A stretch of DNA of 64,000 bases. Origin: Ectocarpus siliculosus (taxonomy: Eukaryota > Sar > Phaeophyceae > Ectocarpales > Ectocarpaceae). Positions within the stretch are counted from its first letter, which is position 1; every line of letters begins with the position of its first letter. Location of the stretch: assembly GCA_000310025.1 (NCBI GenBank), contig FN649744.1, positions 1,175,247-1,239,246 of the forward strand, given 5' to 3'. The translations under genes were made by a program, and so were the position numbers. This document shows, one piece after another, positions 985 to 35,556 of this stretch. A model generated the notes under the pieces. That model was given only the letters and a program-made list of their open reading frames with translations, searched no databases and had not been told where the DNA came from.

Positions 985-2217
985 CCGGAATAACGACAAC
1001 GTAGCAGAACGCCACAACCGACGATATCAACTCGTCGGGCCCCGCGCTGTCCGGGTCCAGCAGTTCCGTGCAGCACACCGTCGACAGCGCTGCAGGAGTA
1101 GGCTCCTCCGTCACGCACGCCGCCATGTCCGACACCCCGCACTTCTCCCCCGCGAGCGACAGCGGAAACGACAGGTCAGGGTTGTCGCCTACCACCTTTT
1201 CCCCGCACCAGCAGCAGCACCAGCAACACCAGCAACACCAGCAGCGAGCGGCAGCAGCAGAGGAGAAGGAGCAAGACCGACAGCAGAACACATCAACGCG
1301 ACGAAGATACAGAGATTGGTGACGGCAATGCCGTTAAGAATCGCCGACGTTGGGAAGTCAAACAGCTCTTGGAGCAAAACACCGGCGGCTACAAACAGGA
1401 AGTGAGCAGTGAGCAAGACCCTTTTGGTGCTGGGTACGAGCATTAGCGTTCCGTCAACGCACCCGGCAGTAGGAGGCCAAACAAGACAAACAAAGTGGAC
1501 AGGATAACCCCCCCCCCAAAGTGCTACTACTACTACAGCACCACAGCACCACAACGTGTATCAATAAGTACCAAACGAGGAGAGGGTCAGCAGGTCAAAT
1601 CTCAGAAGCCAGAGTGAATTTTTGAGGGCAATAAAGTACCACAACGTATTTCCAGGGACCAGAAATGTACCCGCTGGCACTCGAGCCGTTTCAGTGACCA
1701 GCCGGTTAGCGCGGTCGATGCTATCAAAAGAAACACACACAAAAAAACTATTTTGACTACATACATACATACAGCTTGTTCGGCTGCAAAAAAAAAGACT
1801 GGCGTCTTTTCATTGGTCAGCCGGCAATGCTACTCACAAAGAAAACGCACACGCACACACACACACACACAGAATTCCCGGTCTCCTCCCCCTCCCCCCG
1901 CGGCAACAACAAAAAAGCAAACGCACCGTAGTCGTGCCGTCCTCGGCAGTGGTCGTGACCGACAAGACCTCGAAGTCGTACACCGGGCTGTACTCGTTCA
2001 CGGCGTACAGCACCAACGCCTCCACGACCAGGAAAACAGTGAAGAGCCCCCGGAGCCACGGCTGCCTCCTCCTCCTCTTTGGCCTGGTCGACCCCCTCGA
2101 CGAGTCGCTGTCTTCCGCCCCGCTCGCCCCTCCGTTCGGGCCGGTGGCGGCGGCGGCGGCGGCGGCGGCGTCCCGGCCGCCCCCCTTGCCGTCTCCGACC
2201 ACCCCCCCCTTCTTCAT
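985..2217 (-). CDS. unrecognised membrane protein, 5' exons only (runs off left edge)
   Basis: Exon 1 (2217-1927) starts with ATG and encodes an Ala/Gly-rich N-terminus, a basic KRRRRQ stretch and one hydrophobic segment (GLFTVFLVVEALVLYAV). It ends at a clean donor, ACG|GTGCGT. A second likely exon (1195-985) is phase-compatible; it is Cys- and acid-rich, has a hydrophobic segment (SSVVAFCYVVVIP) and ends at CCGG|GTGAGC. A short exon with a TM-like segment near 1290-1420 is possible but not shown. Below position 985 only repeats remain, so the 3' part is missing or beyond the edge. I do not recognise the family. The basic patch before the first hydrophobic segment suggests a cytosolic N-terminus. 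Exon 1 is fairly secure; the join to the second exon is inferred. Confidence 0.4.
1851..1871 (+). repeat. (CA)n microsatellite
   Basis: Interrupted CA dinucleotide run inside the predicted first intron of the neighbouring minus-strand membrane-protein gene. Confidence 0.8.
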
Positions 2218-15800: not shown

Positions 15801-16574
15801 CATAGGGCCTCACAGCACAGTCCTCTGCAGTTCTTGGTGAGCATCACTCCAATGCCCAACCGCATGCTGACTGTATGCGAATGTATGCTACGCTTATGTT
15901 TCTCCGCATGTCAACGAGACTCATCACCACCAACCTTTCAAACCTCCCGTGCATTGCTTTTAAACGAACCGCACAGATAGAGAGACTTGGGGGAAGCTAC
16001 AAACAACGCTGCTGGACTCCCGTTGCATCTTTTTTGCAGAACGTGGCGATCACGCCTGCGCTGCTGTTGGAGCAAGCACTCTTGTGGTTCACGTGCAAAG
16101 CGAATGAGAATTTGTACGGAGATGTCTCGTGTCCATTGGCGAGGGAGATGTTCGATCACCATATTCCACAGCAGAAGTCTAGTGCGGCAAAATCCGCGCA
16201 ACCAAAGCCATCCTCTTCTCTGCCTCGTGCACCTCTGCGACCAACTGCTGTGCCCGTCTCATCCCGCCCATCAGCAGTCTCACCTCTCCGTTCATGCGGC
16301 GGCCGTACCAAGCGGTGACGCTGTACATCAGGGACGTAAGGAAGATCATCGACAGCTCGTGCAGCTCTCGGCCGCCGCTCGTGGCGTACTCCATCACGAT
16401 CCCGTACACGATGAACGAGCACATGATGCCCAGGAAGCACAGGCCCAGCCACAGGTACCCCGCGTTCGGGGTCTCGTAGCCACCGTCCCCTCCGTGCCCG
16501 CCTCCGCCGCCGCCACCATGACCGTGACCGGCTCCGTGATCGGCACCCGAAGAAGCCGCCGCTTCTGCCGCCAT
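11046..16574 (-). CDS. SLC35B-type (SLC35B1/UTR-like) nucleotide or nucleotide-sugar transporter
   Basis: Six exons join in phase: 16574-16233, 13943-13836, 13108-12938, 12377-12192, 11894-11780 and 11200-11046, giving about 358 residues. Order of recognisable segments: a His/Gly-rich N-terminus, first [29 protein letters not shown], then the hallmark [15 protein letters not shown] with [46 protein letters not shown], and a final TM ending [15 protein letters not shown]. Members of this family are about ten-TM antiporters of the ER/Golgi membrane. Human SLC35B1 exchanges ATP/ADP at the ER, while plant and yeast relatives carry UDP-sugars, so the substrate cannot be set from sequence. The Lys-rich C-terminus is not an exact KKxx retrieval signal. 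Intron 1 holds the 600-bp repeat and an N gap. GTG at 16595 is in frame, but 16574 is the first ATG. Confidence 0.92.
11628..11695 (+). repeat. dispersed poly(C)-ended repeat, short copy
   Basis: ACGCGTGGTCAATGGTCTAA, then GGCATGCAAAACAG and AGTACC, then C runs. Same family as 236-325. It sits in the last intron of the SLC35B-like gene, antisense to it. Confidence 0.6.
12390..12426 (+). repeat. (GA)n microsatellite next to a 3' splice site
   Basis: About 18 GA units directly upstream (on the minus strand) of the acceptor at 12378. On the transcript it reads CT-rich and so forms the polypyrimidine tract of that intron. Confidence 0.85.
12817..12882 (+). repeat. (AGC)22 trinucleotide repeat
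   Basis: A perfect AGC run in the intron between the [10 protein letters not shown] exon and the LCFDGG exon of the SLC35B-like gene. On the transcript it reads as CTG-class repeat. It is not translated in the supported model, although it opens poly-Ala/Ser/Gln/Cys frames in all readings. Confidence 0.95.
13185..13258 (-). repeat. dispersed repeat fragment, reverse orientation
   Basis: The reverse complement matches the body of the copies at 30440 and 27110 (GGCCGGCAAAACCCGGCATA, CTCCGTCCCGGC, GGGATGCGAGGTCGATG). It carries a 14-base homopolymer at one edge. It lies in the intron between exons 2 and 3 of the SLC35B-like gene. Confidence 0.55.
14340..15203 (+). repeat. poly(C)-ended repeat cluster with 600-bp repeat copy 2
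   Basis: A short poly(C)-ended copy (14340-14478) is followed by three tandem copies of the roughly 60-bp hairpin-containing unit (about 14478-14670). Then comes the same body as 330-938, ending in a C run interrupted by an N gap. It lies in intron 1 of the SLC35B-like gene. Confidence 0.75.
15160..15176. other. assembly gap (17 N) inside a poly(C) run
   Basis: More than 20 C on the left and more than 20 C on the right. True length of the homopolymer is unknown. Confidence 0.98.
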
Positions 16575-16599
16575 GGGAGGTACCGGGGTTCCCACCAGC

Positions 16600-18225
16600 C
16601 ACCACGGCGCGCTTCCGCCAAGCTACTTACCCCACGACCAGCTCGTCGCTGTTGTCTCTTTCTCTCCGAGAGGCGCTCTGCGGGCACAGGGCAGCGTATG
16701 GCAGTCTGACAGACTGGTCTTGCTCCGCAGCGTGCGGCCGCACTGGGGATGTTCTACCATGGAGGCTCCGTGACATGTATCACGATTTTTGTACACCTCC
16801 CTTTTGATGAGGGTGCGGGAGAATTCGACTCTCGGGCCAATACGGTGCTGCTCACTCTTGAGCTCATCGGCACATCCATCGGCCGTCCATGAAGGCCTCA
16901 GAACCATGCATTGCATGACACGCTGGTCCGGCTACGCCCGGTTCGCAACAAGGGTTGCTCCTAACCCTCGCGCGAGACGGTAAGGTGTAGACTACTCTCC
17001 TGGAGTACATGTAAGATTTCCTTCGTTTATTGACTCTGCTCTCGAAGCAAGTCATTTATTTTTTTATTTTTCCTAGTATGACACGACGAATCCATCTCTA
17101 TCATAGAAAATATTTCATGAGTCGTCTCGGTGGTGGCATGCGCGGGTAGACTTAACCAGCTCTATGCAAACTGCTGTACATAGGCCCAACTCGTTATCGA
17201 TACCCGATCGTAGCATCAAATATTCGAGCCTAGTGCAGCGCAGGCATGGCCCCTCCTCGAATGGGACGACGCCACTACTTGATCGAGGTGCACGCAACTT
17301 TCGCGTCCCAAGGTCGCCCGTGAGGTGTGTGGGTTTCTGGATTTCGGCTACTGTCTACTTGTTATTTTAGACTATATAGTGAGTACAGCAGTAGTGCCCG
17401 CCCCTTCTTGCGCTGTTTGAGGTGCGTTGGCCGCATCCGGCACAACGCACACGGTGGGAGAGGGCGAATCTACGGGAAACACACACAGCGGCGATGCTGA
17501 GCATGGAGACTCTGCCGCCGTTCGACCACACTCCTATTTTTCTGGGATGACAAATATTCGAGTTGGGAAGAAATTACTGCTGCTGCTGTGGCGTCCGATT
17601 TGGGTTTCGACATTTCTCGAGAGGGTGGAGTACTCTCAAAGGGGATAACCAGGGTGCCATTTGGGGTTACCTCCACCAGCTCTTCCTCATCGATACACAA
17701 GGTCGAGAATTTCGGTGGCGATGATAAGAGTTCCTCGACGTTGACACTCTGAACGAACACCGTTTCACTTGCAAACAGGTGGCGTCCTGCCGCATTTTCG
17801 GACGTGGTTGTAACCCCAGTCTTCTGTTGGAACAGCAAGCGAATACCAAGCACTCTCGCTCACAACCCCGCTCCACACCGCGCAGCTTTTATCAGAAGCG
17901 AACGAACCTCTCTGCTGAAAACTCCCTAGTTTACTTATAAATAGACGCTCTCTTCTCTCGATCCCACCACTCCACTCCTCCACCGTAAAAACACACGGGA
18001 CTGTTACTATCTATCCTCCAATTTTACCAGAAGTGAAAGCGCTATGATACAAGAGGCTAACAGAAAAGCACACCTCACAAGATATAAAAAACGAATGGAA
18101 ATCCAAGGTTCCATCCTAAAATTACGCCTGTCTCTCTTCGCAGCGAACGCACAAACAATACCCGACGTCACCCGTACACATTGCTCAGAGGAACCAGACT
18201 CGTGAACGATTCCACAGGAATCAAT
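16600..18225. other. intergenic between two minus-strand genes
   Basis: This lies between the SLC35B-like start (16574) and the RecG-exonuclease stop (18231). Only one candidate exon is visible, listed separately at 17470-17835. The rest shows nothing supportable. Confidence 0.45.
17470..17835 (-). CDS. candidate exon, unrecognised protein
   Basis: An acceptor-like TTCCAACAG opens a long minus-strand frame with protein-like composition (NVEELLSSPPKFSTLC, IDEEELVEVTPNGTLVIPF). A possible donor (GAG|GTAACC) follows the EELVE segment. There is no ATG in frame and no recognisable domain. It could be an exon of a small gene or chance. Confidence 0.22.
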   Translation of the reverse strand: MFQQKTGVTTTSENAAGRHLFASETVFVQSVNVEELLSSPPKFSTLCIDEEELVEVTPNGTLVIPFESTPPSREMSKPKSDATAAAVISSQLEYLSSQKNRSVVERRQSLHAQHRRCVCFP

Positions 18226-18230
18226 CGTGG

Positions 18231-21200
18231 TCATCGCCCGGTCCGTCGGTTGTTGTAGTACCGCCATCCGTCTGCCTTGGTTCTTCTTGCTGGGGGTTTC
18301 CTCGTGCGGGCGGCGATGTTCGTCGCAGCCTGCAGTTCCGCCAAGGAACGCGGAACGGGTATCTGGCAGGAGGGGTGGCTGCTAGCCACGCCTCGCCACC
18401 TAACAGACAGCCAGCGGGGGTAGGGGGGGGGGCGTACTCATGTTTGGAGTGCCAGGGCGGTTAGACAATTTGACCACTGGGCATCAATTCATTCACCGGC
18501 GCTGGACAAGTTAGACACAACAACAGCGGTCACTCGACAACGTTCATGCTGAGTCCGATTCAGGGCAGAAGAAACGATGCAAAGGAACGTGTCGCAAAAG
18601 GCATCGTCACTGCTTACGTACAACAACGTCGTCGACGATTCAGCACGCGCGCTCTCTGGAAACACCAAGAACACCCAACAGAGCGGCCCCGCCGCCACCC
18701 ACCCCTCATTGATGCCCGGCGCCGACAGGATGCGTTCCAGTCCAACGACGTCGCCCATCGCGTTGTGCGCGTCTGGCATTTCGTAGCCGTACAGGTGCTC
18801 GAACACCCCTGAGAGAGCAGAGGCGTTATCGCAGGGAAAAAGTGACCGGGTGAAGCAGACAAACAGCAAAAGGACAGGGCAATGGGGTGTCAGTACTGCA
18901 CGCGCAAAATCCATGCTCATGTAGAAATAAAAATGTCTCAAACTTCGAGCACTGAATCAGGCACCTTTGTTGGCCTACAAATCAGTCACATCACCTCATC
19001 ACCTGCGCGACAGGCCCAGAAAATGAAGTCCTACACCCAAGCCCTCCTCCCTACAGCAATCCCAATCGATTTGCGACGGCGGCAAAGCCAACTAGCCACC
19101 AAGTCGCATCCTTGCCCAGGTCAGTAGAATTTTTGGTATCCAGTCGGGGCGTGTCAACGTGTGCGTGGTCACCGCCTACTTGCTTGCTCGGGCACGATAT
19201 ACCGACCACAAGACTTGGTCTAGGCTGCGCTTGCAAGCATAGCAATATACCACGGTTGGAAGGGGGCTGGGCAAAACGAAGAACCAGGAAACGGCCGTGA
19301 CGCAAACTAACCAAACCCCAAACTATCGCACATCACAACCACGTCCCCGCTTCCCCGGGTCGTTCTCTCACCCCCGAGCTTGAAATTCTTGGGCCTCGTC
19401 GGCATGTGAAAGTCAGAGGCTTTTTGTCTCCACAAGCTGCTCTCCTTCAAGCACCTCAGGGAGTCAACGATGCACACGACTCCCATGTCCTGGCCCATCA
19501 TGAACCTTCAAGGCGGCCAAGCAAAACAACAGAAGCGCGGGGTTTCTACTAATACCGACAAGGAGAAGAGGAAGAGTGCAAGCACGCACCGCGAACTCAC
19601 CCGGTGCACGAAAGGGGAAAAAAACAACCCGAGGACAAGCTATGTTTCTTTCTAGGCATGCATAAAAACAGCACTCGATGCCCTGCCGAGCGCAAACGAA
19701 CACCTGTCGTGGTCGGCCAACAACAACAACAACAAAAAATCCCCGACTATGTTACTCCCCTGGCTGCCAGCCTGACCGCACCACCCCGAAGCGCCATCCA
19801 CAACGCCGTCCAAAATGACCTTTAACCCCAACCAGCATAGCCCAGCAGCCCCCGAAAAACCGCCCACACCTGCTGAAGCCGCATCGCGACACCTCTTCCT
19901 TGAGGAACTTGTGGTCGAACTGGGCGTTGTGGGCAACGAAGACGACGCCGCCCTCGCCCCTGCCCTCCGCTTGCTCTTCGGCCACGACCCCCGACAGCCA
20001 CGCCGCGAACTCCGGCCACACTTGGGGGAACGGGCGCGCGCCGTTGGCGGCCAGGATCTCCGGCGTGATCCCCGTAATCTCTGTCCGAAAGACACACAGG
20101 GTTTGCCGTTTGGGAACACGCCGCGTTCGTGGTCATGCGGTGACGCAGAGACAGTAACGCTTGCCATAAACGGAGTATTTGCGGTGAGGGAGACGGTTAA
20201 CGCTTTACCAACCACGTAGATGCTTACCAAAAACGGAGATTTTGCCGCACGGAACACAGAGATAAGCGTTGTCGAGGGCACGCCGTGAGGTAGACAGCAG
20301 TAACGCTCACCATAAACGGAGGTTTTGCGGTATGGAACACCACAGAAACACGCGTCATCGAGGGAATGCCGTGGGGTAGACAACAGTAACGCCTACAATA
20401 CGATAACTCAGAGAAAGCTGGAGCGTGCTACCTTTCTCCTGATTATACGGAACTCTCGCGGCAGCAAGCAAGCTGGCGTGTCCTGCGAGACAGAACTCTT
20501 GCAAGACCAAAGCTGGCGCGTGTTTGCTCTCGCCTGCTACACAGCCACGGCGACGCACCGCGCAGCTCCGGCGTTGGATCAGCGACGATGAGAGGCCCCG
20601 TCATTATATTAAGAGAGCTTGCCACCACACACACCCCACGCCAGGTAGGCCTTAGAATCACGCCTACACAGCGGCAGCCCAAAAAACACCAAAATATGTC
20701 ACAGCAGGGCGTACCTCGGACTCTGGGAGGCACCCCCACTGCCCCCGGGTCGACGAACTCCGCGAACGAGTGCCTAGGATTCTCGCTGCCCAAGACCTGC
20801 AACGGACAGACAGGTGGCGGCGTCGGCGGGGGGGGGGGCGCAGGCGTCGGCGGGGGGGTTGGTTGACGCCCTCTTGGTATGCACACGTCCAGGTCGGCCA
20901 AGAAAACACGAGGGTGAGGAACACTCCTTGGCTTCACACTGGTGAGAGGAAACAATATTCAGGTGGATAGTATACACAGCATTACGGAGCTCGATCAAGT
21001 AGTGAGCTTGGTCACACAACAAGCTGGACTTTCGGGCCGGAACACGTCCCTTTACTACGCCCCACGAGTCACAAAAACATCGCGTTTAAGTTGTGTGCGC
21101 ACAGCAGTCGCACGCCTGGTTCGAGCTTTGTTTTGAGACGAGGCGGCTCTGACCGCCCTTAGGGCCGCCATCGGTGCAACGCTGAAACTCTCGGCCTTCC

Positions 21201-24200
21201 TCGCCCAAGGGCCACGACGGTGACCTAGGGCATCCCGTCGGTTTGTCGGCATTTTTCACCCCGAAACAAGCGCTACGTACGGGCTCTCCGTGGAAGCAGC
21301 ACGGAGCCACTGAATCGACCGGCGTCCATGGTGCAATACCGCAGAAAGAGAGCCGTTTCTCTCGACACAACGCTGCGCACTGCGAACCTTCGCCGCGAGC
21401 TGAATGACCCGGTCTTCCTTAGCCCGGAGCCCCGTCGTCTCGACATCGACCACGACTACCGTGTGCGTCCCCTCCGACAAGTCCGCCCGGCGGATAATCG
21501 CCACGCCCTCCCCCCTCGATGCACCTCCGTCAGCTCCCACCGGAGGCCCCGTCGGCGCCACCTCTCCTGAAGACCTTCTCTCGTGCTGCTGCTGCTGCCG
21601 CCCTGCCGGCTGCAAACGCGGCGGCGGCGGCGGGGGCGGGGGCGCGAAAGAGAACCCCGAGAGATACTCATCTTCCTCGTCCTGGCCCTCCATCATCTCC
21701 GCGTACTCCGAGGCCGACTTCTCCAAGAAGTCCGCCTCGTCGTCGAAGTACACCGCCGCGGGCACCGCGAGCTCCGGCCCCGGTTCTTTGCCACTGCTGC
21801 CCGGGCCCGCAGTCATCCGCGAGCCCGACACCCCCACCGCCGCCGTCGCCTCCGCCTCCGCTCTGGCTGCGAAGTCGGGGGCGGAGGAGGACGACGCGGG
21901 GGGGGCGTCAGCAGCGGGGGTGCTGGTGTTGAGGCTTTCCACATCATCAGGTGTTGCTGCCGCAACCGGGAACGACTGTGGAAGTTCCGTCGCTCGTTGG
22001 GGGGCGTGTTCCTTTGCCTCGCGCTCTCTCGCCGCCGCTCCTGCCCGGTCCGCGTCCCCGCCTGCCGCCACGCCGGCGGCGTCGCCGTCCGCCCCGCCTG
22101 GAGGGGGCGTTCTGGACGCGAAGCCGCTCAGCAGAGCCTTCGCATCGGCGCCCAGCCCGCAGAGCACCAGCAGCAGCCCGAGGCTCTCCGGCCGGCCTCT
22201 CTCCTCATCATAGTCAGCACCGGCACCCCCCTCTTTCAAAGCCACGGTGCCCCCCACTCGCGGAGCCCCCGAAGCGGCGGCTTCCTCGGCATCGGCGGCG
22301 GCGGCGGCGGCGGCGCCTCGAGGCGTCCAGCTCTCTACGAGACGGCGGGCGCGCTTGCTGGCGTGCTCGGCGAGGGACCCCTGTCGGGCGAGGTCGGCCA
22401 CCTTGAACCTGTCGGGGGTCGCAGTTAGTAATCATCGCGCCGAGAGGGGTGTTGTTGTCATTGTCGTTAGGGAAAACGAGTGGTGAACCTTTTGGTCGCA
22501 GTTATCATCGCGACGAGGGATGTCGGTGTTTGTCATTGTAGGGAAACGGGCGGGGGGGGGAAAGAGGAGGGGGCCAACAGGACACCCTATAATAGGCGGA
22601 GCCGCCACAATTCGAAAGATAGCCATGACGTCACATCCTACTTTCGTGCTTCACAGATCAACCCTCGCCAACTTCAATCGGATTCGATGCGCCCATGCCC
22701 CAGCGGAGGACGGTAAACAGGCCTGGCCGCGAACAAGCATACGCGCAGCGACACTTCAAAGTCTGCGGCGGAGGGTTCGTAGCACGTCGCTTTGCGAGGA
22801 GCAAAAACGAGTTACCATTTAGGCTGCTGTATCCAACAACAACAACTTTGTAAAAAAAAAAATGCGTCAAGATAAAAAAAAAATATATATATATGACACC
22901 TTCTTCGTGGGCGACAGACACGGCAGTTTACTTCATATACCGTAGGTGACGCAAGATACCACACCCCCTGCACCGACTGTCCAAGCTCGAGTACTCCGCG
23001 ATGAAACAAAAAGGATGTTTACAACAAACCATACGGTTTCGGAAAGCTCTCGACGAGCCGGTTCCAACGCTGACATTCTCGACGCGGCCGCTCTTTCTGT
23101 GACTGTGGATTAATTGAGCTTTGGTCCAGGGGGGGGGGGTGATATCTTACGTCATTAATATATCGTGTACTCACTTTCCCTCGATGTACCCCTTCTGCCG
23201 CATCCCGAGCACCTCCCCGGGGCCCCTGAGGGCCAGATCCCTCTCCGCCAACAGAAACCCATCGCGAGTCTTTCGGACGGCCTTGAGCCTCTCCGTGGCA
23301 TCGTTGCCTACGTCTGGCCCGTACAGCAGGATGCAGTGGGAGGTTTGCCTCTTGTCCTGCGACGGGTCCTCCTGGTCATGGGCGGGGAAGGCACGTGATC
23401 GTCGCCATCGGCATAAGGAATACAGTAGTGCGGGGGATCGAGGCAAGCAACGGCATATCAAGTGTACATTTAGCTTTTACAAGACAAATATTTTACCCAA
23501 AATCTTTGGGAAATACAAAACGAAGATATTGCTTTTGTAACAGCTCAATTTTAAGCACACAAAAACATGCATTGTTGAAAACACTTGTTTTTTGCGCCGA
23601 TCGCAAACCAAACTGCGTGGTGTGTATGGGAGGCTGGCGATCAAAATTCCCAGCACTTGGCGTACGTGCGCTCACTGCGGCGGAACAGCGGGGGGCCACC
23701 GCTGCGGCAACTCACTGCGGGAGCACACACAGTCATCATTTACAAGCAAATGGAAGCATCGTCACAATCATCACAACAACGGACGGTGGGGATCCGTTCC
23801 AACTACATAGATATTATAGTACCACAGCTTCATGTTTCCTCCCACTTCAGTTGAACCACTGCTGTTGAAACCCCGTTGTCCGGGGAAACGTGCGAGTCAT
23901 CACGCACTTTCATATCTCACTTGCTCCACAGCCAAGAGACTGCCGGTGAGAAAAGGGCAGGGTGGTGTCGGGAAACAAAATCTCGCCGACAGCTTCCCCT
24001 TGCGCGTATTTGTCGGTTACCGCACCATGTGGACTTATCGGTTCGGGCTTTCTTCACTCATCCGAGGGTGCGTGGGCGATGACTGTTCACACTTTCACGG
24101 TTTACATACCACACCCAAAAAAAAAAAACAAATGCCGTGTGGCGTTGATGGTGGTAGTCGCGGAACACCCGGACCGACTGCCCTCCCGGTCCCCGTTCGC

Positions 24201-27200
24201 AGCAGTGGCACAGTGGCACCTACCTCGGGGGAAGCAGGCTGCTGCAAAGATCCCGTCGGTGCTGTCGTTGATCGCTCCCGCTTCCCCCGGTCGGTCCTTC
24301 CGAGCCTGCCGCGGAGCTGGTGCAGCTGGCTGAGACCGAACATCTCGGCGTTTTCGACCACGCACACCCCTGCCCGGGGGACGTCGACGCCGACCTTGAG
24401 ACACAAGCGGCGATCAGCAAGCAAGGGCAGCAGCAGTGCGACGGAGGAGGGGAGGAGAAATTTCCGTCGGCGGCCGGATCAATATCTTGCGGCAGGATGA
24501 AACGTACTGTGAAGCCAACGCGGTGGTATCTCAAAGCGACCTTTAGTCATCGCCGAAAACACAAGGGGGATCAATGATGTCGATGAAACAAATCACCAAG
24601 AATCGTAGCACGTTCAGCCTGGAACAAACGCCGCCAATGTACCGCTACCCTGCACGCTCTTGATCTCCAGCCTGCATCAAGCCTAGCTTTTCCCCCATCA
24701 CTGCCGCTCGCATCATCGCCGTCCGTAGGCGGATCCCTGCGCAACTCCACCTGACGAATCTCACGCTCACCTCGATGATGCTGGTCGACACCAACACGCG
24801 GAGCCCCTTGCCCTTCTCCCCGCCGGAGAACTCGGAGAGGCGTTTGTTCTTCTCGGCCGAGGTCATCTTGCCGTGGAGGAGGGTCACCCTGCCGTCAGTC
24901 GGACACACAACACAAAAAGAAGACACATCATTGGATGGAAGAGACCACGCCGAATGAGCTTCTTGCGTTCTCTGATTGTTGCAAGGCGAAAAAAAAGGGG
25001 TGGGCGAAGCGCACATTGCCGGAGGATGGGTGGTCAAGCATGCATGGATTTTTCGTATTTGCTGGCACGTGGGTTCAGCTTTCTAGACGCCGTTTTTTTA
25101 ATGTGCCGAGTACGGGGGGGAGGGAGGGAGGGAGGGAGGGAGAGGGAGGGAGGGTGCTACGCGAGGAAACCTGTTGGAGAGAAGATGAATGCGTGAGGTT
25201 CTTTCGAGCAGCATCTGTATCACCACAAACTTGATGCACTGAAACGTGTGGGATTTTACACACAAAAGAGAGTGAAAGCCAAGGGGCTCGTGGACCGCGG
25301 CGACACCTATAGCAGCTCTCACACCGACGCTGACGCTCTGTCAACTGCAGGCGACGTTCGGTCGCAAGAGCAACGTCGAAGGTATTTCGCAGCAAACACC
25401 ATCATCGACAACAACAACAAAAACAACAACACTGCCAACAAAAACGACAACAGAGCAACAGCAACAACATCATCATCATTGCCTACAACGACAACAACAA
25501 CAACAACAACAACAACGATGGACAACGAAGACGGAATGCGGAGGCCACACGACGGGGCTCACCTATCCTCTCCGAGCTCCTTCACGAGCGCATCGTACCG
25601 CTCGGTGGCCGAAGCGAGGTGCTGTCTAGTGCTAGACTCAGACTTGTTGATTTTGTGGGAGAACCCAAAACACCTGGGTCCGCGGGTGGCCGGGGGGGGG
25701 GGGGGGGGGCGAGATGCAACCATGTTCATCCACGGGGGCTTTACGCTTCAAACAGGGTGTGGCCGAGAGGAAATGAAAAGCTGGGCTAGCACTTGTTTTG
25801 GGGCAAGGCTTGGCGATGGATACGCTGAGGCCGGCATACGCGTGGCAGAGCAGACCAAATACACAAATTCAATCACAAATTCAATCTCTTGTAGAGAGGG
25901 TGATAGCTTCAACGGAAGCGGGCGCCGAAAACAACTGACACAATCACCGAAAAAAGAAAAAAGGAAGAGTGTTTGATGAGGGAGCTTTGCAAGGGGGGGC
26001 CGCAGTCAAAACAAGGGGGATGATGGCGACACTACCCAGGGATGGCGTGAAACCTTTTCTTCGCGGCTATTGTATAATTTCAAGCCCAAGGGCGCAGGCA
26101 GCTTGCTGCATCAATCCTTCTCATGTGACGATTTTCGCCTTGTGAAACACAACTAACACAGGGGCTTCAACCAGCTAGGCAGGGTCGGACCTACAGAGGG
26201 GTGAGCACGAAGCACTCGCCCTCCCCCATCCCCACTGCCCTCCAACCCACAACGCACCTTGTCATCGGTGTCTTCCCGACCCTTGAGCCTGTCCATGACT
26301 TCCTTCGCCTTGGCCACAGGGATGAGGGTCGTCTCGATGTTCGCGGTGCCTCGCGGCATCTCTCGGATCTGGCTGATCTGTTTCGCCGCCCAATAGGCGA
26401 GCGGGGGGGTTTTGACGAGCAAGCGGTCAAGGCCAAGCAGTTACCTCGTACCACTAACTTTGGCGGATAAGTTTACAAAGTTTGGCGTAAGTTAGCACTG
26501 ACGTTTATCCCATTCGGAGTGCGGGCACGGCCGCCATAACCCGTCCGCGCCTTGTGAAAGGAGGGTATGGGCTGCATGGTTGAACTGACTGCTGGAATTT
26601 CTAGACTCCGTTGCCTCCGCCCGACGGTCCCCTCAACCGACTAAATAGCCGCCGGCACCTCCAGCACAAAACGACTCGCCTAAGTGCCTCAATCTTGAGA
26701 GACGGTGACGAGAACTTCGATCCCCCCCCCCCCCCGGTACCCCTCTATCAACATGCCTTCTGCACGTCCAGCACAAACTGACCCATTCTCCATTCCTCAA
26801 TTCTTAAGAAGTGACGGGCACTTCGAGACCCCCATCCGCACCCCTCAATCAACATACCTCTGGCATGTCGAGCACCACATGACCCACCTCCATGCCTCAC
26901 TTTTGAGAGATGATGACGGGCTCTTCGAGACCACCATTCCCCCCCCCGGTACCCCTCTATCAACATGCCTCCTGCACGTCCAGTACAAACTGACCCATCG
27001 CCATTCCTCAATTTTTAGAGAGATTGTGACGAGCAAATCGAGACCCCCCCCCCACCCCCCATGCGACTCGCCAAATACCTCACGGCGCTTCGCGCTTGGT
27101 GATGTGAGAGCCTGGTCCGGTGAGAACCCGGCGTGCTCCGTCCCGGCTTTGTAGGGATGCGAGGTCAATGGTCAAACGACTACGGCATGCACGACTATGA

Positions 27201-30200
27201 GTACACCCCCCCCCCCACCCCCCCTCGCACCCCTCAAATAACATGCCTCCGGCACGTCCAGCATAACAGGACCCACCTCCATGTCGCCAAAGAGGGCCAA
27301 CGTTAAGCTCCTCGGGATGGGGGTAGCCGAGAGATAGAGCACGTGCTGCGCAAAGCCTGCGGTCGACGAAACGCAAGACGCGTTATGGGGAGGGGCAAAG
27401 GTCGGGGAGCGGGCACGTAAGGGGTTTGCTGCGAGAAGGAGGCGTTCCTTCTTCAGGGAGGGTGTGAGAAAACCTCAATTTTCACAAAACGAGCTTGGTA
27501 GCTCGTGTCCGTGCCTGCGCAAGGTGATCGACAGCGGTGTGGTAAAACATCGACAGAAACCTCGAGGAGCGGTGGGGATGGTGGCGCACGCCAAAATCAA
27601 CCTTGCTCGAGAGAAGGACCCAACCGCAACGTAGCCGGCAGTGGTATATTCGGGAAAAGGAACACCCTCTCACGGCGCACGGTTAATGCCGTGTGCGGTT
27701 GGTGTCGGCGCGGGATGCGTGAAGAAATAAACGCCTCTGAAAGTGCGGGAAAATGCTAACGTCCGACTCTCACCCCTGCGGTTGTCCACAGCAAGGATGT
27801 ACGGAACAGAACGGAAACGAACAAATGAGGGCGACAAGAGCGGTGACTCAAGGATAACAGCGAGAGGCTCACCAGTCAACTTGTCCCTCTGCTCCACCCC
27901 GAACCGCTGCTCCTCGTCCACTACGGCCAGGCCGAGATCTCGGAAAGCCGTAGACGCGCTCGTCAGCACCGCGTGAGTCGCCACCAGAATGTCCACCTGC
28001 AGGGGGGCCACCAAACACCGGCACGGCGGTAACTCAGGAAAGTCTACGAGTTTTTTTCCGGTGGTCCCGGTACTAGCGGTGATTACCGGCATACCATTCG
28101 GTAGTACCGGGGGGACCGCCGAAGGCGGCACCGCCGAAGGCGGCACCGCCGAAACACGAAAAAACGCTTACCGCCGCAAAAGCACCGGCGTGTTTGCAAT
28201 ACCGCCACGCTGGTGACCTCCCACAAAACGGTACCGACGACAGCCCTGGTAACAAGGGTTACATGTTGACAAGGTTTTTGACCAAGATCCTCGTAGGTTG
28301 TGAGAGCCGTCAACACAAAAAATAATGCACTCTCCCCAATCACTGGGGAGGAAAAAAATATATAACACGAACACGCGGCATGGAGGGACCAAGCGAAACC
28401 ATAACGGGCGTTGTGGTTGGTGTACCCACGCGAAGGTACCCGTGGGTAAGGGGGCTCTGTCACAGCCGCGTGCCCCCCCTCCCCCTGCCTCTCCAGTAAT
28501 CTCGCTCATCCGCAAGATACTAAGTGCAGCGAGTTCGTCTTACAAACACAACCCGAACGACCCAACCGCACGTACCTCCCCACTCTTGACGTCGTTCAGC
28601 AGCTGCTGCCTCGCCTTCCCCTTAATGCTGCCCGTCAGCAGCTCCACCCTCAGGTTCCCCTTTCCATCCGGCCGCTCGATGCCCTCGGCCATCGACCTCA
28701 GAGTCTGGGAGCCCAAAAGTTCGTCGCAAAATTAAGTGGGTCTTGCGTTCAAGAGTTCGAGTGAAGCCTACCAAAAACGTTTCAAAACCCTTTTTTATTG
28801 TTGCTAAACAGCACGAAAATCACCGGGTGTTTGTCGCAAAAAAAAAGTGGGCCTTGCGCGCGCCGCACGAGCACGGTCGAAACCTCCCGCAAAACATTTG
28901 CAAGTACTCTCTTGTTGATGCTGCTGCTACTGCCGCCGCTTGTCTTGGCGTGGACGAATGCCTTTGACCATCTGCCCAGCAGTGGCATGCCCTCACTGCT
29001 GTTGTCACCCCCCGCTTGCAAAGTTAACGACCAGTGCGGCCCGAAGGCAAGGGAGAACATTGCGACTACACGGTCTCTGCGACGGTTCCAAACCGAATAA
29101 AACCCTTCCAAGCCCTGCTACGAGACAGAAGACGTCCTGGAACCGAACTACCGCATACACGTGGTCAAAACCCCCACCAGGGTATATATGACTTAGGCGA
29201 CGCTGAGTCAGGAGTCACACGTTGTAGGGGCTAGAAAAGACTCTTTCAATGCTTCAACACACCCAAGGCTCTAGGCCACCCCGAGCACAAACCAGAGAAG
29301 CTGGTCGCCGCAGAAGCGGCCGTGACAAACTGGCGTGATTTCATCGCTCAGCCGGAAATGTACCGCGGTCGATGCCAACAACAACAAAAAAAATACACGC
29401 ACACACATACATACACACAACACACACCAACAGACTACAAGGCGAGCAAACCTCGATTGACCACATCGTCAGTAGCAGAACGAACGTACAAGCACATATA
29501 CCTGTAGGTGTTGCACCGTGAGCACCTCGGTCGGGGCGAGCATGCACGACTGCGACCCCTGTCCGGCGGCCCTGAGCATCGCCAGGAAGGCCACCGCGGT
29601 CTTCCCCGACCCCACGTCGCCCTGCAGCAGCCGAAACATCCGGAGGCTGCTGCAGCTGCCGCTGCCCTCCATGTCCTTCAGGACCTCGTCGAGAGCTGCA
29701 AGGTCGGCCGGGGCGGGAAGCATAAGAGTGACGGTGGGGGGGGGGGGGGGGGGGGGGGGGGGAACCTTTNNNNNNNNNNNNNNNNNNNNNNNNNNNNNNN
29801 NNNNNNNNNNNNNNNNNNNNNNNNNNNNNNNNNNNNNNNNNNNNGCGGGAAGCATAAGAGTGACGGTGGGGGGGGGGGGATACTCATGTTTTGCATGCCT
29901 TAGTTGTTAGAGCGTTCACAACGCGCCCTCGCGAGGACGCATGGAGCATTTGTTCCAACGAGAACGATCCCCGATGGACAATCGGTCCTTCTTACTTTTG
30001 CCAAAGGTGACCCAAAAATGGGGGGAGGCGGTTATGGTCCGGGGTATATGTCCGGCCAGCACAGAGAGATACGCTCGCTGGCAAAGCAAGGCGGCAATCG
30101 ACCGAACCAAGCGCTGACCCCATGTGTTGTGTGTTGGGATGGATACGGCAGGCAGTTACGGCAGGAGTGGCAAAGGGATGGCCTGTTGCCTTCGATTCTT

Positions 30201-33200
30201 TGGTATCGCACGAGCGCCACGCCAAAAAGACGACACACTTCTCGCGGAGCAACAGACGCACGGAGAGAAGACTTGTTTCTAGGCGAAAAGACAGCACCAG
30301 AAGCGGAGAAAACGCGCACTCGAACCAAGCAACCCCCGGCCGCACCTCTGAAACATGCCCCACCCCCTCCGTTTGGCACAGCACACGCAAGGATGATGAC
30401 CGCCTTCTGGTTCATCCTGGTGAAAGGTAGCCTGGGCCGGCGAAAACCCGGCATATCGCTCCGTCCCGGTGTTGCAGGGATGTGAGGTCAATGGTCCCAC
30501 GACCACGGCATGCTTTTACACGAGTACACCCCACACGCGGTCAATGGTCTAACAACTAAACTCATGCCGAACTGAGTACCCCCCCCCCCCCCTCCCCCCC
30601 CGTAAGCTGTTCACTTTATCGACGCACCTTTGTTTTGACTCGAAGTGAGGTCAAACGGTAATCGCCGCCGTCCCTCTTCCACCAATGCCGCTTCCCCCCG
30701 ACCCTCGCCATACTCGCCAGCAGCAGCAGCCGCAGAGCCGTCTCCCTGATCCCCTCTATGGCCGCTAACGCCGCCACCAATGCCGCGAGTTCTGGCGTCT
30801 CCTGAGCGCGAGAACGATCTGGCTGGCGAGGAGCTCGTCGTACGCCAGGCGAGATCGGGTGGCACCGGAAGGTCTCAAGTCTTCCTGTTTTGTTGCAAAA
30901 AAAAAATCGCGGCGATATTTTGGTGTGTGGGTGTAGACTAGAAACTGCAAAGGCAGCAACAGCAGTAGCCGCAGCGGCAGCGGCGGCAAAGAAAAGTAGC
31001 GTCCAGCGAGCAAAGAGGTTCGATAGCACGAGAGGAGGGAGGTGCTACCACAAAAAGGGCGGCGGAGAGAGGGGTGTGTGTTTCGTCAGAGATTCTCCCG
31101 CAAAGCGCCCTAGGGGGGGAGGATCAACCAAGCCATCCACAAAACACCCCCCGCTGCTCCTGAAGCCATCTTCTCATCAACCGGTGTTCAGGATCGATCC
31201 AAAGAACGCTTCGCTCGGGGCTATCTCGCAGAAATGGTGATCGGCGCGCTATGCTACACTCACTGCTGTAGGTGACATTACGTAAGATATCACGCTCCCT
31301 GGATTGGTTCTGCAAAGCTCGACTACACCACACGACGAAGAGGATGCCACGAGTCAACTGATACGTTTTCGGAAAGCTGCCGTTCCACCGCCGCCATTTT
31401 CGGCACCACGTCTCTCGCTCTCTCTATGCCCTGGAGTAATCGATCTTTGAAAAATCGGCCCAAAGGGGGGGGGGGGGGGGGTGATATCTTACGCCACGTA
31501 CTCCGGCAGACATCCGACAAGACACGCCGTGTGTTAAGCAGAGGCACAGAGAGAGGGGGGGGCGTCGCGCACCTCCTGTTGAGGGCTGTGGGCCGCCGAT
31601 AGAGCTTCCCGAAGGCTTGGCCAACCGTGCTCCCGCATCGTTTCCTGGTCTATCCACTCCGGCGGAAACTGCGTCACCCCCTCCAGCTGGTCGAGCGCCA
31701 GGGCGATGACCGAGCGGAGGCTGGACCCGCTCAGACCGGCGGTGAGGGGGTACGTGGGCTGGATAACTAACACCTGAGGGTACATGGGTTGGGTGGGGGG
31801 GCGCGTGCTCATGTTTTGCATTGTTAGACCGTTGAGCACGCGTCCTCGAGAGGACGGAGTACTGCTGTTGCCGCAGGACCGATTGCCGATGGCCAATCGT
31901 TCCTTCCTACTTGTGCCAAAGGTGGGGGAGATCATCGGCAGCGACGGTGTGGGAAGGGGCAGGAGTGATTGAAAACAGTACGGGTTCGGTGGGAAGGGGG
32001 CTAGATGAAGAGTGTGGGGGGGGGAAGGGGGGCAGGACTAAAAAACGTCGCTCATGGGCTCGATGTTTTGGATTCCTTGCCTAGTGGACCGTCAAAAGGG
32101 TCAAAGTGACCCCGTTCCCGTAAGCACCGCAAAAAAACAACCAACCCCTGCACGGCGCCAACGCTTCATCTGCGGTGTTGCAACGTGGCTCTTGGTAGCA
32201 GAGAGCATGCACCAAACGGAAGGTATGCTCGTATCACCTGGCACATGCCAAGCTTGGACTCAAGAGACGGAAATCTAACCTTCGAGGCCACCCGCCCCAA
32301 CGCGTTTCGTTTCGGGAATCCCCCCCCCACACGTATTCGCGCCGCTGGTCCTGACCCCCCTTCTCGACACCCAGCAACGACGTGGCCGTGGCCTGCCTCC
32401 CGAACTGTCCCCACACGATAATCCCCTTGCAGAACCCCAGGTTCTGTGCCCCAACCATGCAGTACACCATCCCGATCCCAAACTATTGTAGAGCAAGGTC
32501 CGGGGGGTTGTGGCTGCTACCAAGAAGACATGGCTCTACACACAAGAGCCAGAACGTGGCCCTCCCTCTAAAAACGCGACTCAATCGACTCATAACACTT
32601 TCAGTTCCTAAAGCTCATCGACGCCCGTGTGCAACTCCGGAAATGCGCACTAATTGTAACACTTTCAGCTTCTAAAGCTCATCGACACCCGTGTTCAAAC
32701 TCCGGAAAGACGTGCTCCTTGATGGTTGGATCCCTCCCGAGAGGGCCGTGCTGCTCCCTTCCTGGCTCACCTTTTCAAGGTCGGCGGCAGGGGCTACGAC
32801 CTCTGGCGAATTCATCACCAGGGCTCCGCTGTACTTGTCCATGGTGACCTTCCCACTCACCACCTTGGTCTCCCCGGGCTCGTAGTTCTTGCACAGCCAG
32901 GACCTGCGTGTTCAGATTGGCCCAAGGCATGGACAGCAGAGGTGGTGGCTACGGCATAAGAGAGGGTTCGGACATGTCAACAACGCTCTCTTAAATCCAG
33001 TTTATCTTGAAAACCGTACTGCTGTACAATATGTGAAGTTGTCAAGGTCGGGACAAGCCAAAAACACCCTCTTAAAACTCGATTTTCTCTTGAATACTCT
33101 TTAACCCGCTACTGCACAAGTTTCGTAAAGATTCCGACCAACAGCACGTTTGCGTCCGGTTAGGTGGGTCCGGTTGGGTGGCCAATTCGAGGATTTCCCA

Positions 33201-35556
33201 ACCAATACCGCGCGAAGAAGGATGAACACAGGGTTAAGTGGGGGGGGGGGAGGGGGCATTGCCGGGCCGGACTGAGAGGCGGCTGTCACAGGAGAAATCC
33301 AGTTTTACCGTCTGGTCATGATCGTCCCTCACACGATGCCTGGATAAACACAACACCAACAAGCTCACACGTCCACGCCCATGTGGAAACTTCCGGTAGA
33401 ATTTACCTAGTGTTGTCCACCGCCAACCCAAAACCGCATCAAAAACGAAACTTCTCCTAGGTGGGCGGATAAGGGGAGGATAGCTCTACTCCGGGGTTGT
33501 CTGCGGTGGACGCACGGAACAAACTACCTGAAGCCGGGTGAAAATGCTTCTCTTGCTCTCACCCGCCAAACATGACGATGTCTATCTTATCCTCCACCAC
33601 GTCAACGCAATGGACGCGTGTGATCCGAGGCGACCTTTTGCGGGGGTCGCTCTGCACCTTCACCACCTGCGCGCGGCGCAAAGCAAGCAAACCAGCCAAC
33701 CACGGGGCGGCGCAAAAGACAAAAACAGCAACCCAGAAACAACGTGAAACAACGAAGCGGCCGCACCACGCGAACGGGGAGAGACGAGGGGAACAAGACT
33801 GGGACATATCACGGCGAGGAAGAGGAGCGTCGTGGCAACACAAGTGTCAGGCACCCAAGCCATAGTGTGGCGTCCCTGCTCGATTGATACAGCAGCGAAT
33901 GCCGACAGTGACCTACAGCTGCGGTGGCCACAGGTTCCCACCCCACGTCTGCGCGGGTGGAAACCATGGACGAGATTGACCACTTGCCACGCCACGCCAA
34001 AAACCCTACCATTCACTTCCACGAAAGATATAATAGGACGTTCGTCCGAAAGAGGGTACTCAACAGAAGCGCACGAGGAAAAAAAAAACATGATGAAGAC
34101 GTCTAGCAGAAGTAAGGGGTCGGTGTGCCAGACGGGACGACGGGCGTCACCTTGAGCAACAAGGTGGCAACCTCTCCCTCCACGAGATTCGCCACGCGGC
34201 TCGTTTCCCTCCTGTCCACCATCCCCGTCGGAAGGTGCCAGAGCAGATCCGCCACGGTCGTCACACCTGTTTGCCCGAGCGCGTTGGCCGCGCGGAGGCG
34301 GGCAAAGAAAAACAACGCGTAGCGGGTGGGAGAACGTTGGAGCAGCAGCGGATGGAAGAAGAGAGATGTGCGCTCGGGCAGCGGAGTGGAAAACGGAGCT
34401 ACAGCAGACTCTACGCGGATACGAGTACGGACATGCACGCAACGACCGGGCAACCATCAGAGGACTTGGGGCAGTCAACAGCGCCGACACCACCAACATT
34501 GCAGTAACTCCGCGATCGATCCCCCCTCCCCCTCCCATTTCACCTAGCTTGGCCAGCTGCTCGGCCTTCCGCGGCCCTACCCCCTTCAGGGCATCCTCAG
34601 GCGGGCTCGACAGGTAAGACAGGGTCTCCGCGTACGCGTACGACTCGTCCACGACGGCACCCTTCCCCCCCCGCCGCGCAGCAGCTACCCCCGTAGCAGC
34701 CTTCCTGGCTTGCCTGGGACCGCTGCCCTTCTTCCCGCCTCTCGTGGCCGACGTCCCGTCCCCCGTCCCCTTGTCGGCGAAATCATCGGAGGCGTTATTG
34801 CCGCTGCTGCTGGTTTCTCGTCGCAATTCTCTTGCTGCTACCGTGCTGGTGGACGAGCCTCGTGTGGGGGCGCCGCTGCCGACGGCTGGCGCGCGCGAGA
34901 AGGGGAGAGAGTGGCCGCGAACGGGTGAAAAACACAGAGTCTGACACTTGGTGGGCAGTAAGGGGTGGATTAAGACACACGGCGCGTGCTCCCCCGACTT
35001 GGAGTACGTGGTTTCGAGGTCACAGGACTATTTAGAACCTGGTTCACGATGCGCAAGTGCTGGGATGCAATACCGTTACGTGCTTCCGCACAGTCTCGTG
35101 GGGAGGCCGGGCCGGGGGTGTTGGTGGTGCTGGTTAGCCTCGAGTGGTGCAAAACACCAAACGTTGCTAGGGTACCGGCGGGCTTCGCCAAACCTGGCGT
35201 GCGGTGCATAAAAGCAATCTTTGCCGGGCGTGTCAACTGAGTTTGTAACGCACTGAGCGGCTTTCTCGCCACACGTCGAGCAGGGGACCCATCGTAAGCG
35301 CGGGAGCGGCTTCTTCTCTCTACACGTCGAACAAGCGGTAACGTCGGCAAACGAGCGGTTGGGTTCACGTTTGCTCACTTTGCAGGCGAGAGAGGCCGAA
35401 GTTTGGCCTCGTGAGCACCCGCCGAGCCGCGGCCGTCCTCCAGGCATGCAGCCCAAGCATGCTGCCTGCTCCTACGAAAGACGCCCGGGATGATGTTGTG
35501 GAAGCAGCAGTAGTAGCGCTGCTGTTCGGTTGCTGATTGCGTGAAGAGAGGGCCAT
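18231..35556 (-). CDS. RecG-type DNA helicase fused to a DEDDh 3'-5' exonuclease
   Basis: Exons: 35556-35379, 34885-34544, 34266-34151, 33666-33563, 32903-32771, 31773-31573, 30884-30628, 29695-29502, 28704-28576, 27996-27873, 27356-27277, 26377-26258, 25673-25563, 24888-24771, 24394-24224, 23371-23175, 22408-21388, 20796-20715, 20080-19893, 19489-19372, 18808-18703, 18399-18231; about 1418 residues. The N-terminus is Arg/Ser/Ala-rich with no acidic residues, like a mitochondrial presequence. RecG signatures follow: [31 protein letters not shown], Walker [79 protein letters not shown] and [12 protein letters not shown] low-complexity acidic linker (about residues 890-1170) leads to exonuclease motifs [20 protein letters not shown] and DAHNAMGD. 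RecG remodels stalled forks; DEDDh enzymes trim 3' ends. Exons 30884-30628 and 25673-25563 each need one base fewer to stay in frame. Confidence 0.9.
18424..18480 (-). repeat. dispersed poly(C)-ended repeat fragment, reverse orientation
   Basis: A G run followed by CGTACTCATGTTTGGAGTGCC and TTAGACAATTTGACC: the reverse complement of the family's 3' end. It lies in the last intron of the RecG-exonuclease gene, next to the final acceptor. Confidence 0.5.
20085..20400. repeat. degenerate minisatellite, unit about 85-90 bp
   Basis: Three to four diverged units share CATAAACGGAG, TTTTGC(GG/CGC), GAACAC and TCGAGGG..CGCCGTG, then GTAGACA(G/A)CAGTAACGC. It lies in the intron between the second and third exonuclease exons. 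Confidence 0.65.
22942..23155 (+). mobile_element. MITE-like TIR element, copy A
   Basis: The left end GTGACGCAAGATACCAC and the right end GTGATATCTTACGTCAT are inverted repeats of one another with few mismatches. Internal TTTCGGAAAGCT is shared with copies B and C. A G homopolymer sits just inside the right end. No coding capacity. It lies in the intron before the large RecG-linker exon. Confidence 0.6.
25105..25155 (+). repeat. (GGGA)n simple repeat
   Basis: A GGGAGGGAGGG-type run in a RecG-exonuclease intron. Confidence 0.8.
25405..25516 (+). repeat. (ACA)n-rich simple repeat
   Basis: An interrupted AAC/ACA run ending in about nine perfect units, in a RecG-exonuclease intron. Confidence 0.8.
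26690..27290. repeat. minisatellite of about 105-bp units carrying donor-site copies
   Basis: Four or more tandem units contain ACCCCTC(T/A)ATCAACATGCC, CACGTCCAGCA, then GACCCA..(T/C)CCATgCC. The last unit is split by a poly(C)-ended repeat insertion (about 27045-27222). It continues into the real exon end at 27277, so the units look like tandem copies of this intron start including the 5' splice site. Confidence 0.65.
27061..27222 (+). repeat. poly(C)-ended repeat, 160-bp copy inserted in minisatellite
   Basis: Nearly identical to 774-936 and 14988-15150, ending in GAGTACA plus C runs. Its C-rich flanks interrupt the minisatellite, so it arrived after the tandem array formed. Confidence 0.7.
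28115..28153. repeat. tandem 15-bp self-complementary unit
   Basis: ACCGCCGAAGGCGGC occurs twice, followed by ACCGCCGAA. Each unit is a perfect short hairpin (CCGCC-GAA-GGCGG). It lies in a RecG-exonuclease intron. Confidence 0.85.
29770..29844. other. assembly gap (75 N), probably artefactual
   Basis: The sequence GCGGGAAGCATAAGAGTGAC plus GGTGGGGG occurs just left (from 29713) and just right (from 29845) of the gap. The two contig ends therefore probably overlap and were not merged because of the G run. The gap is intronic and no exon of the RecG-exonuclease gene is lost. Confidence 0.8.
29855..29955 (-). repeat. dispersed poly(C)-ended repeat, reverse orientation
   Basis: A G run, then ATACTCATGTTTTGCATGCC, TAGTTGTTAGA and CGCGAGGACGC: the reverse complement of the family. 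Intronic. Confidence 0.6.
30418..30600 (+). repeat. two poly(C)-ended repeat copies in tandem
   Basis: A body copy (GCCGGCGAAAACCCGGCATA, GGGATGTGAGGTCAATGGTC, GAGTACACCCC) is followed by a shorter copy (GCGGTCAATGGTCTAACAAC, ACTGAGTACC plus C run). It lies just downstream (transcript sense) of the exon ending at 30628. Confidence 0.6.
31268..31497 (+). mobile_element. MITE-like TIR element, copy B
   Basis: The left end has CGTAAGATATCAC and the right end GTGATATCTTACG, a perfect 13-bp inverted repeat. The interior shares TTTTCGGAAAGCTG and ATTTTCGGCACC with copy C. A run of about 16 G sits just inside the right end, as in copy A. It lies in a RecG-exonuclease intron. Confidence 0.7.
31795..31870 (-). 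repeat. dispersed poly(C)-ended repeat, reverse orientation
   Basis: GGGGGGGCGCGTGCTCATGT, TTTGCATTGTTAGACCGTTG, then GTCCTCGAGAGGAC. It lies immediately upstream (transcript sense) of the acceptor for the exon starting at 31773. Confidence 0.55.
32593..32708. repeat. tandem duplication of about 62 bp
   Basis: TAACACTTTCAG(T/C)T(C)CTAAAG, CTCATCGAC(G/A)CCCGTGT and CTCCGGAAA occur twice in a row. It is intronic in the RecG-exonuclease gene. Confidence 0.8.

Follow-up and report, generated by a model that had tools for sequence, protein, structure and literature searches.

A candidate organelle-directed RecG-exonuclease fusion encoded in the genome of a chlorophyll a/c alga

The locus analysed here raises the question of whether a RecG helicase and a DEDDh exonuclease, encoded one after the other on the same strand, make up one protein, and if they do, what kind of enzyme it would be and on what DNA it would act. 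It lies in a window (the whole stretch of DNA that was analysed, 64,000 nucleotides, G000:C19:1175247-1239246) of a 189-Mb assembly. We put at about 65% the probability that a nuclear gene encodes here a single organelle-directed protein of ~1430 residues, in which an alphaproteobacterial-type RecG is followed by a linker of 290 residues and then by a DEDDh 3'-5' exonuclease of the TREX/DPD1 type, and in which DNA remodelling would be coupled to the removal of 3' ends.

The gene model comprises 22 exons, and the exon coordinates proposed in an earlier note on this DNA agree with it. All 21 introns have GT-AG ends and their phases agree throughout, except at two frame breaks located inside exons 7 and 13; with an X placed at each break, the spliced model has 1434 positions. 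The content and order of domains can be read directly from it, with Pfam matches running from RecG_wedge through DEAD, Helicase_C and RecG_dom3_C to RNase_T. The features, in window coordinates, are:

18231..35556, minus strand: whole gene model, 22 exons, from the ATG at 35556 to the TGA at 18231 (21/21 GT-AG introns, phases)
35379..35556, minus strand: exon 1, ATG and putative mitochondrial leader
34544..34885, minus strand: exon 2, N-terminal region of low complexity, followed by the beginning of the RecG wedge region
34151..34266, minus strand: exon 3, RecG wedge
33563..33666, minus strand: exon 4, RecG wedge
32771..32903, minus strand: exon 5, RecG wedge
31573..31773, minus strand: exon 6, RecG, interval between wedge and helicase core
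30628..30884, minus strand: exon 7, end of domain 1 and LPFDLT motif; holds frame break 1
29502..29695, minus strand: exon 8, helicase motif I, GDVGSGKT
28576..28704, minus strand: exon 9, helicase core
27873..27996, minus strand: exon 10, helicase motif II, DEEQ
27277..27356, minus strand: exon 11, helicase motif III, SATPIPR
26258..26377, minus strand: exon 12, helicase core
25563..25673, minus strand: exon 13, VFWVLPQ, start of the second helicase domain; holds frame break 2
24771..24888, minus strand: exon 14, helicase C domain
24224..24394, minus strand: exon 15, helicase motif
23175..23371, minus strand: exon 16, RecG domain 3
21388..22408, minus strand: exon 17, RecG C-terminus (...LVESW), 290-aa linker and exonuclease motif I (VVVDVETTG)
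20715..20796, minus strand: exon 18, DEDDh exonuclease
19870..20080, minus strand: exon 19, DEDDh exonuclease, motif II, HNAQFD
19372..19505, minus strand: exon 20, DEDDh exonuclease
18703..18808, minus strand: exon 21, DEDDh exonuclease, motif III, HNAMGD
18231..18399, minus strand: exon 22, basic C-terminal tail and stop

A run of Ns is present in the intron preceding exon 8, and a short GCCTTCGGCGGT-type repeat (window 28083-28170) is found inside an intron of the RecG half.

The RecG half exhibits Pfam matches to the wedge domain (PF17191, 4.9e-16, residues 160-315), to DEAD (5.2e-20) and Helicase_C (5.1e-18), and to the C-terminal domain 3 (RecG_dom3_C, PF19833, 3.2e-9, 37.2 bits with the cut-off at 26.8, residues 830-887). 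The solved structure of RecG (PDB 1gm5) is matched at 2.8e-98 over wedge, helicase and domain 3, and helicase motifs I, II, III and VI are all present. The best NCBIfam model overall is also RecG (NF008164, 2.9e-185); this match and that to TIGR00643 (E-value 1.2e-156, 523 bits vs 659.4) fall below the respective curated cut-offs, which were made for bacterial annotation, and the query protein carries two frame breaks.

The exonuclease half is matched by RNase_T (PF00929, 1.5e-13) from residue 1179 onwards. The DEDDh signature has been defined as Asp-Glu, Asp, His and Asp distributed over motifs Exo I, II and III (available part of PMC12292046), and all of these catalytic residues are present in the sequence (DVE at 1182-1184, HNAQFD and HNAMGD). 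The earlier note called the enzyme a proofreading-type exonuclease; its placement among DEDDh enzymes stands, and the proofreading/epsilon subgroup is probably wrong, since among solved structures in the PDB the best match is TREX1 (3.5e-10), with an alignment running through motifs II and III, followed by PolC (4.7e-7), RNase T (9.8e-6) and, weakly, DnaQ (2.1e-3). Yet NCBIfam models of bacterial DinG, PolC and epsilon also match, at best with 3.9e-18, mainly over the first half of the exonuclease (Exo I-II), in a library that showed no TREX model. The two resources are thus not unanimous, and we assign the domain to the TREX/DPD1 type, although not with certainty; DPD1, an organelle exonuclease of plants, is described as resembling the TREX1 kind (PMC12292046). 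TREX1 and TREX2 themselves are standalone animal enzymes, unlike the fusion considered here.

The two halves meet in exon 17. As had been claimed, the tail of RecG and exonuclease motif I lie in one exon of 1021 nt (22408-21388) with no stop, and both of its junctions, with exon 23371-23175 before it (AA|G) and with exon 20796-20715 after it, are in phase. The 290 residues between LVESW, which ends at residue 888, and VVVDVETTG, which starts at 1179, form a probably flexible linker with a high content of Ala (21%), Gly (12%) and Pro (10%). In the 822 nt of the linker that were examined the gene frame contains no stop, and the two remaining forward frames contain 4 and 8. Among 2000 dinucleotide shuffles of this sequence, 1.15% kept the frame open; among 500 sequences shuffled from the introns on either side, none did. 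The openness of the linker taken alone is nevertheless weak to modest evidence, because the linker is GC-rich (0.72 vs roughly 0.5-0.6 in the flanking introns) and the opposite (+) strand in the region of exon 17 also holds long open frames, of 269 and 285 aa. The strong argument for a fusion is the homology found in one frame on either side of the linker, to RecG_dom3_C at 830-887 and to RNase_T from 1179.

Ahead of motif I the frame contains Met codons at residues 1059, 1099 and 1100, so that a separate start of the exonuclease inside exon 17 is conceivable, as is a separate promoter, and the locus would then consist of two adjacent genes, RecG and a downstream TREX-like gene. We consider this very unlikely: no in-frame stop occurs between the RecG C-terminus and the exonuclease, so that a transcript of RecG by itself would depend on alternative splicing of a kind not seen here or on early polyadenylation. 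The splice sites that flank exon 17, moreover, have scores inside the range spanned by the other sites of the gene. We infer, instead, that one transcript spans both halves.

The earlier note did not mention that the frame is broken twice, once in exon 7 (30884-30628) and once in exon 13 (25673-25563). On both sides of each break the homology to RecG continues only after a change of frame, and the assembled gene as it stands therefore has no read-through. Both breaks belong to the RecG half and are separated from exon 17 by more than 3 kb. Inspected by eye, alternative splicing did not explain them: around the exon 7 break no choice of GT-AG sites joins the frames sensibly, and in exon 13 an inner AAG acceptor would restore the frame, with the loss of VFWVLPQINK. 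The breaks may be read as real lesions of a decayed gene, and the only gene used for comparison, the Mfd gene on contig C33, contains none over the 9 of its exon segments that were aligned; as a control it is weak, because the same scan alone failed to reveal the two breaks of the window gene. We regard a pseudogene as unlikely, and assembly errors as the likelier cause, because there are just two breaks over about 1430 codons and the helicase and nuclease motifs are intact, as are the splice sites (all 21 introns GT-AG), with no premature stop elsewhere in the model. The exon 13 break, moreover, adjoins an A-run, and assembly indels are common at such runs.

The rest of the genome was searched for relatives of either half. 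TIGR00643 gave 12 matches, 5 of which belong to the fusion gene and 4 to one gene on C33, which was considered as a second RecG and turned out to be Mfd (4/4 stretches tested score best with mfd). One of the two matches on C14, also a candidate, is a short stretch in a frame whose best model is the Hef nuclease, i.e. a Hef-like helicase. The other match on C14 and one elsewhere on C19 (40233-40466) each cover about 80 positions of the helicase core; with these two short matches left aside, the fusion gene appears from these comparisons to be the only RecG found in the genome. No second relative of the exonuclease in the genome passed E 0.02, the two weak matches having E 0.0235 and 0.241. The one match in the genome to the RNase_T family, in a search that missed the fusion gene itself, whose exons are short, is a distant intron-less frame on C16 (L001). 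This frame (1432-2082, minus strand) encodes a DEDDh exonuclease of 216 aa (PF00929, 2.6e-4), is located beside other long open frames, and may lie in inserted foreign DNA.

What would such an enzyme do? RecG substrates are branched intermediates. The likely role, as far as it can be deduced from the domains, is the remodelling of organellar forks or D-loops coupled to trimming of 3' ends. The wedge and the translocase would bind branched organelle DNA such as stalled forks, D-loops and R-loops, which the RecG half would then unwind or reverse, and the tethered exonuclease would remove the displaced or invading 3' end exposed by the remodelling. As an outcome, illegitimate strand invasion between short repeats might be irreversibly aborted, or a reversed fork might be reset. 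The preference of RecG for branched substrates, together with the single RecG found in the genome, which would fit a maintenance role, would argue against a different division of labour, in which the domains are joined and the exonuclease serves bulk degradation of organelle DNA, as DPD1 does, with RecG only opening the DNA or recruiting the enzyme to it. That the best solved match of the exonuclease is of the TREX type speaks for such a function, as does the degradation of plastid and mitochondrial DNA by standalone DPD1 in plants, reported in the available parts of PMC12292046 and PMC12079397; on balance we find it doubtful and prefer coupled remodelling and trimming, the coupling itself being presumed from the joining of the domains.

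The organelle in question would be the mitochondrion. The earlier note described a mitochondrial-type leader, and the N-terminus is compatible with one as far as composition goes: residues 1-60 include 7 Arg, and neither Asp nor Glu occurs before residue 79, mitochondrial leaders being Arg-bearing and without acidic residues. The RecG half was placed in a tree of 30 rows (the window gene, 8 alphaproteobacteria, 10 cyanobacteria, 10 others and E. coli), in which it groups with the 8 alphaproteobacteria with support of 100/98, and joining it to the 10 cyanobacteria is rejected (p-AU 0.0196). A mitochondrial (alphaproteobacterial) origin of this half is hence favoured by the sequence comparison, as a lead and no proof, because the window RecG sits on a long branch (1.94), the alphaproteobacterial rows had been selected for being best hits, and the remaining Proteobacteria are represented by E. 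coli alone.

The host was characterized by its light-harvesting proteins. The genome yields 87 matches, many of them gene pieces, and one translated protein matches the fucoxanthin-type FCP17 of PDB 9ygv at 7.4e-114 (next match 2e-63), which identifies the host as a chlorophyll a/c alga and no green alga; judging by the size of the genome and the style of its genes, it is probably a brown alga. On contigs C92, C232 and C488 many light-harvesting matches occur with identical scores and short spacing, a pattern that would fit recent amplification in tandem or duplication during assembly.

A fusion of this type had been presented as new to eukaryotes, and it is not: a DPD1-like exonuclease fused to RecG was published in 2024 for the green algae Micromonas, Ostreococcus, Volvox and Cymbomonas (available part of PMC12292046), and a 2025 review repeats this finding and describes the function as still to be explored (available part of PMC12079397). 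The architecture is thus known, because RecG-DPD1-like fusions are in print, and exon 17 places RecG and exonuclease in one reading frame as in the green-algal proteins, which, as far as the available text of PMC12292046 goes, share with ours the combination, within a single protein, of RecG with a DPD1/TREX-like exonuclease, and the link to organelles. They differ in the host, and what is new here is the host, a chlorophyll a/c (fucoxanthin-type) alga. No fusion in stramenopiles or chlorophyll a/c algae was found in the literature searched by title and abstract opening, with few subscription journals covered.

Other systems resemble the fusion in part. Bacterial DinG (NF005981, TIGR01407) also joins a DEDDh exonuclease to a helicase and is similar in Exo I-II, but its helicase belongs to another family and its exonuclease is N-terminal (profile positions 5-113 of 931 matched), whereas that of the window gene is C-terminal. 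Plant organellar RECG1 (Arabidopsis; RECG of Physcomitrella) is likewise an organellar RecG homologue, the organellar location being predicted in our case, and to our knowledge it carries no attached exonuclease. The Arabidopsis RECG1 is described as organellar in the available part of PMC9129000. The DPD1-MutS1 fusions of Viridiplantae, as given in the part of PMC12292046 available, also attach a DPD1-type exonuclease to an organellar recombination or repair protein, but with MutS1 as the partner and DPD1 at the N-terminus, in contrast to RecG and a C-terminal exonuclease here; MutS_III gave 4 matches in the genome studied.

The occurrence of the fusion in green algae and in a chlorophyll a/c alga implies that the union of RecG and TREX/DPD1 is either old, or was spread between lineages, or was invented repeatedly. 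Its recurrence argues for a real functional link between remodelling of branched organellar DNA and 3'-end removal. A rather unlikely scenario, which we put forward tentatively, is that chlorophyll a/c algae acquired the fusion by themselves, on a mitochondrial (alphaproteobacterial) RecG, in convergence with that of green algae; if true, two distant algal lineages would each have tethered a TREX/DPD1-type exonuclease to RecG, yielding a convergent organelle enzyme for fork remodelling and 3' trimming.

Prokaryotes were surveyed for a C-terminal exonuclease in sets that are small, picked by similarity and no census. A first scan matched at least 596 stretches, 592 of which, among the matches listed, encoded a relative, and 80 loci were kept. 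Ten (L021-L030) were taken as RecG, with 39-53 residues past the matched part, and the other 70 as Mfd, according to score and, mostly, to frame lengths of 1074-1340 aa, some of these frames being truncated where a contig ends; three loci tested among these 70 were all mfd. With the exonuclease of the fusion gene as query (E 1e-3), no exonuclease frame was found in the 80 loci. RecG_dom3_C was matched in 33/36 prokaryotic genomes, and 30 of its loci were taken, of which two (L107, L118) gave no RecG frame. The remaining 28 frames, which share some genomes with the set of 10, all end 22-57 residues past the match, so that none carries a C-terminal exonuclease; one weak exonuclease match (E 0.081) is in another frame of L126. 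In viral contigs 3 stretches matched the pattern and none encoded a relative.

As to the neighbours of the fusion gene in the window, frames P0001, P0002 and P0005 have no Pfam match. Downstream of the gene, a minus-strand open frame of 147 aa (window 16179-16622), also with no Pfam match, contains hydrophobic stretches and resembles a membrane protein. Two plus-strand open frames, P0003 (48736-50097) and P0004 (50646-51884), exhibit partial BTB/POZ matches (1.6e-8 and 3.8e-8, respectively) and are possibly exons of one gene.
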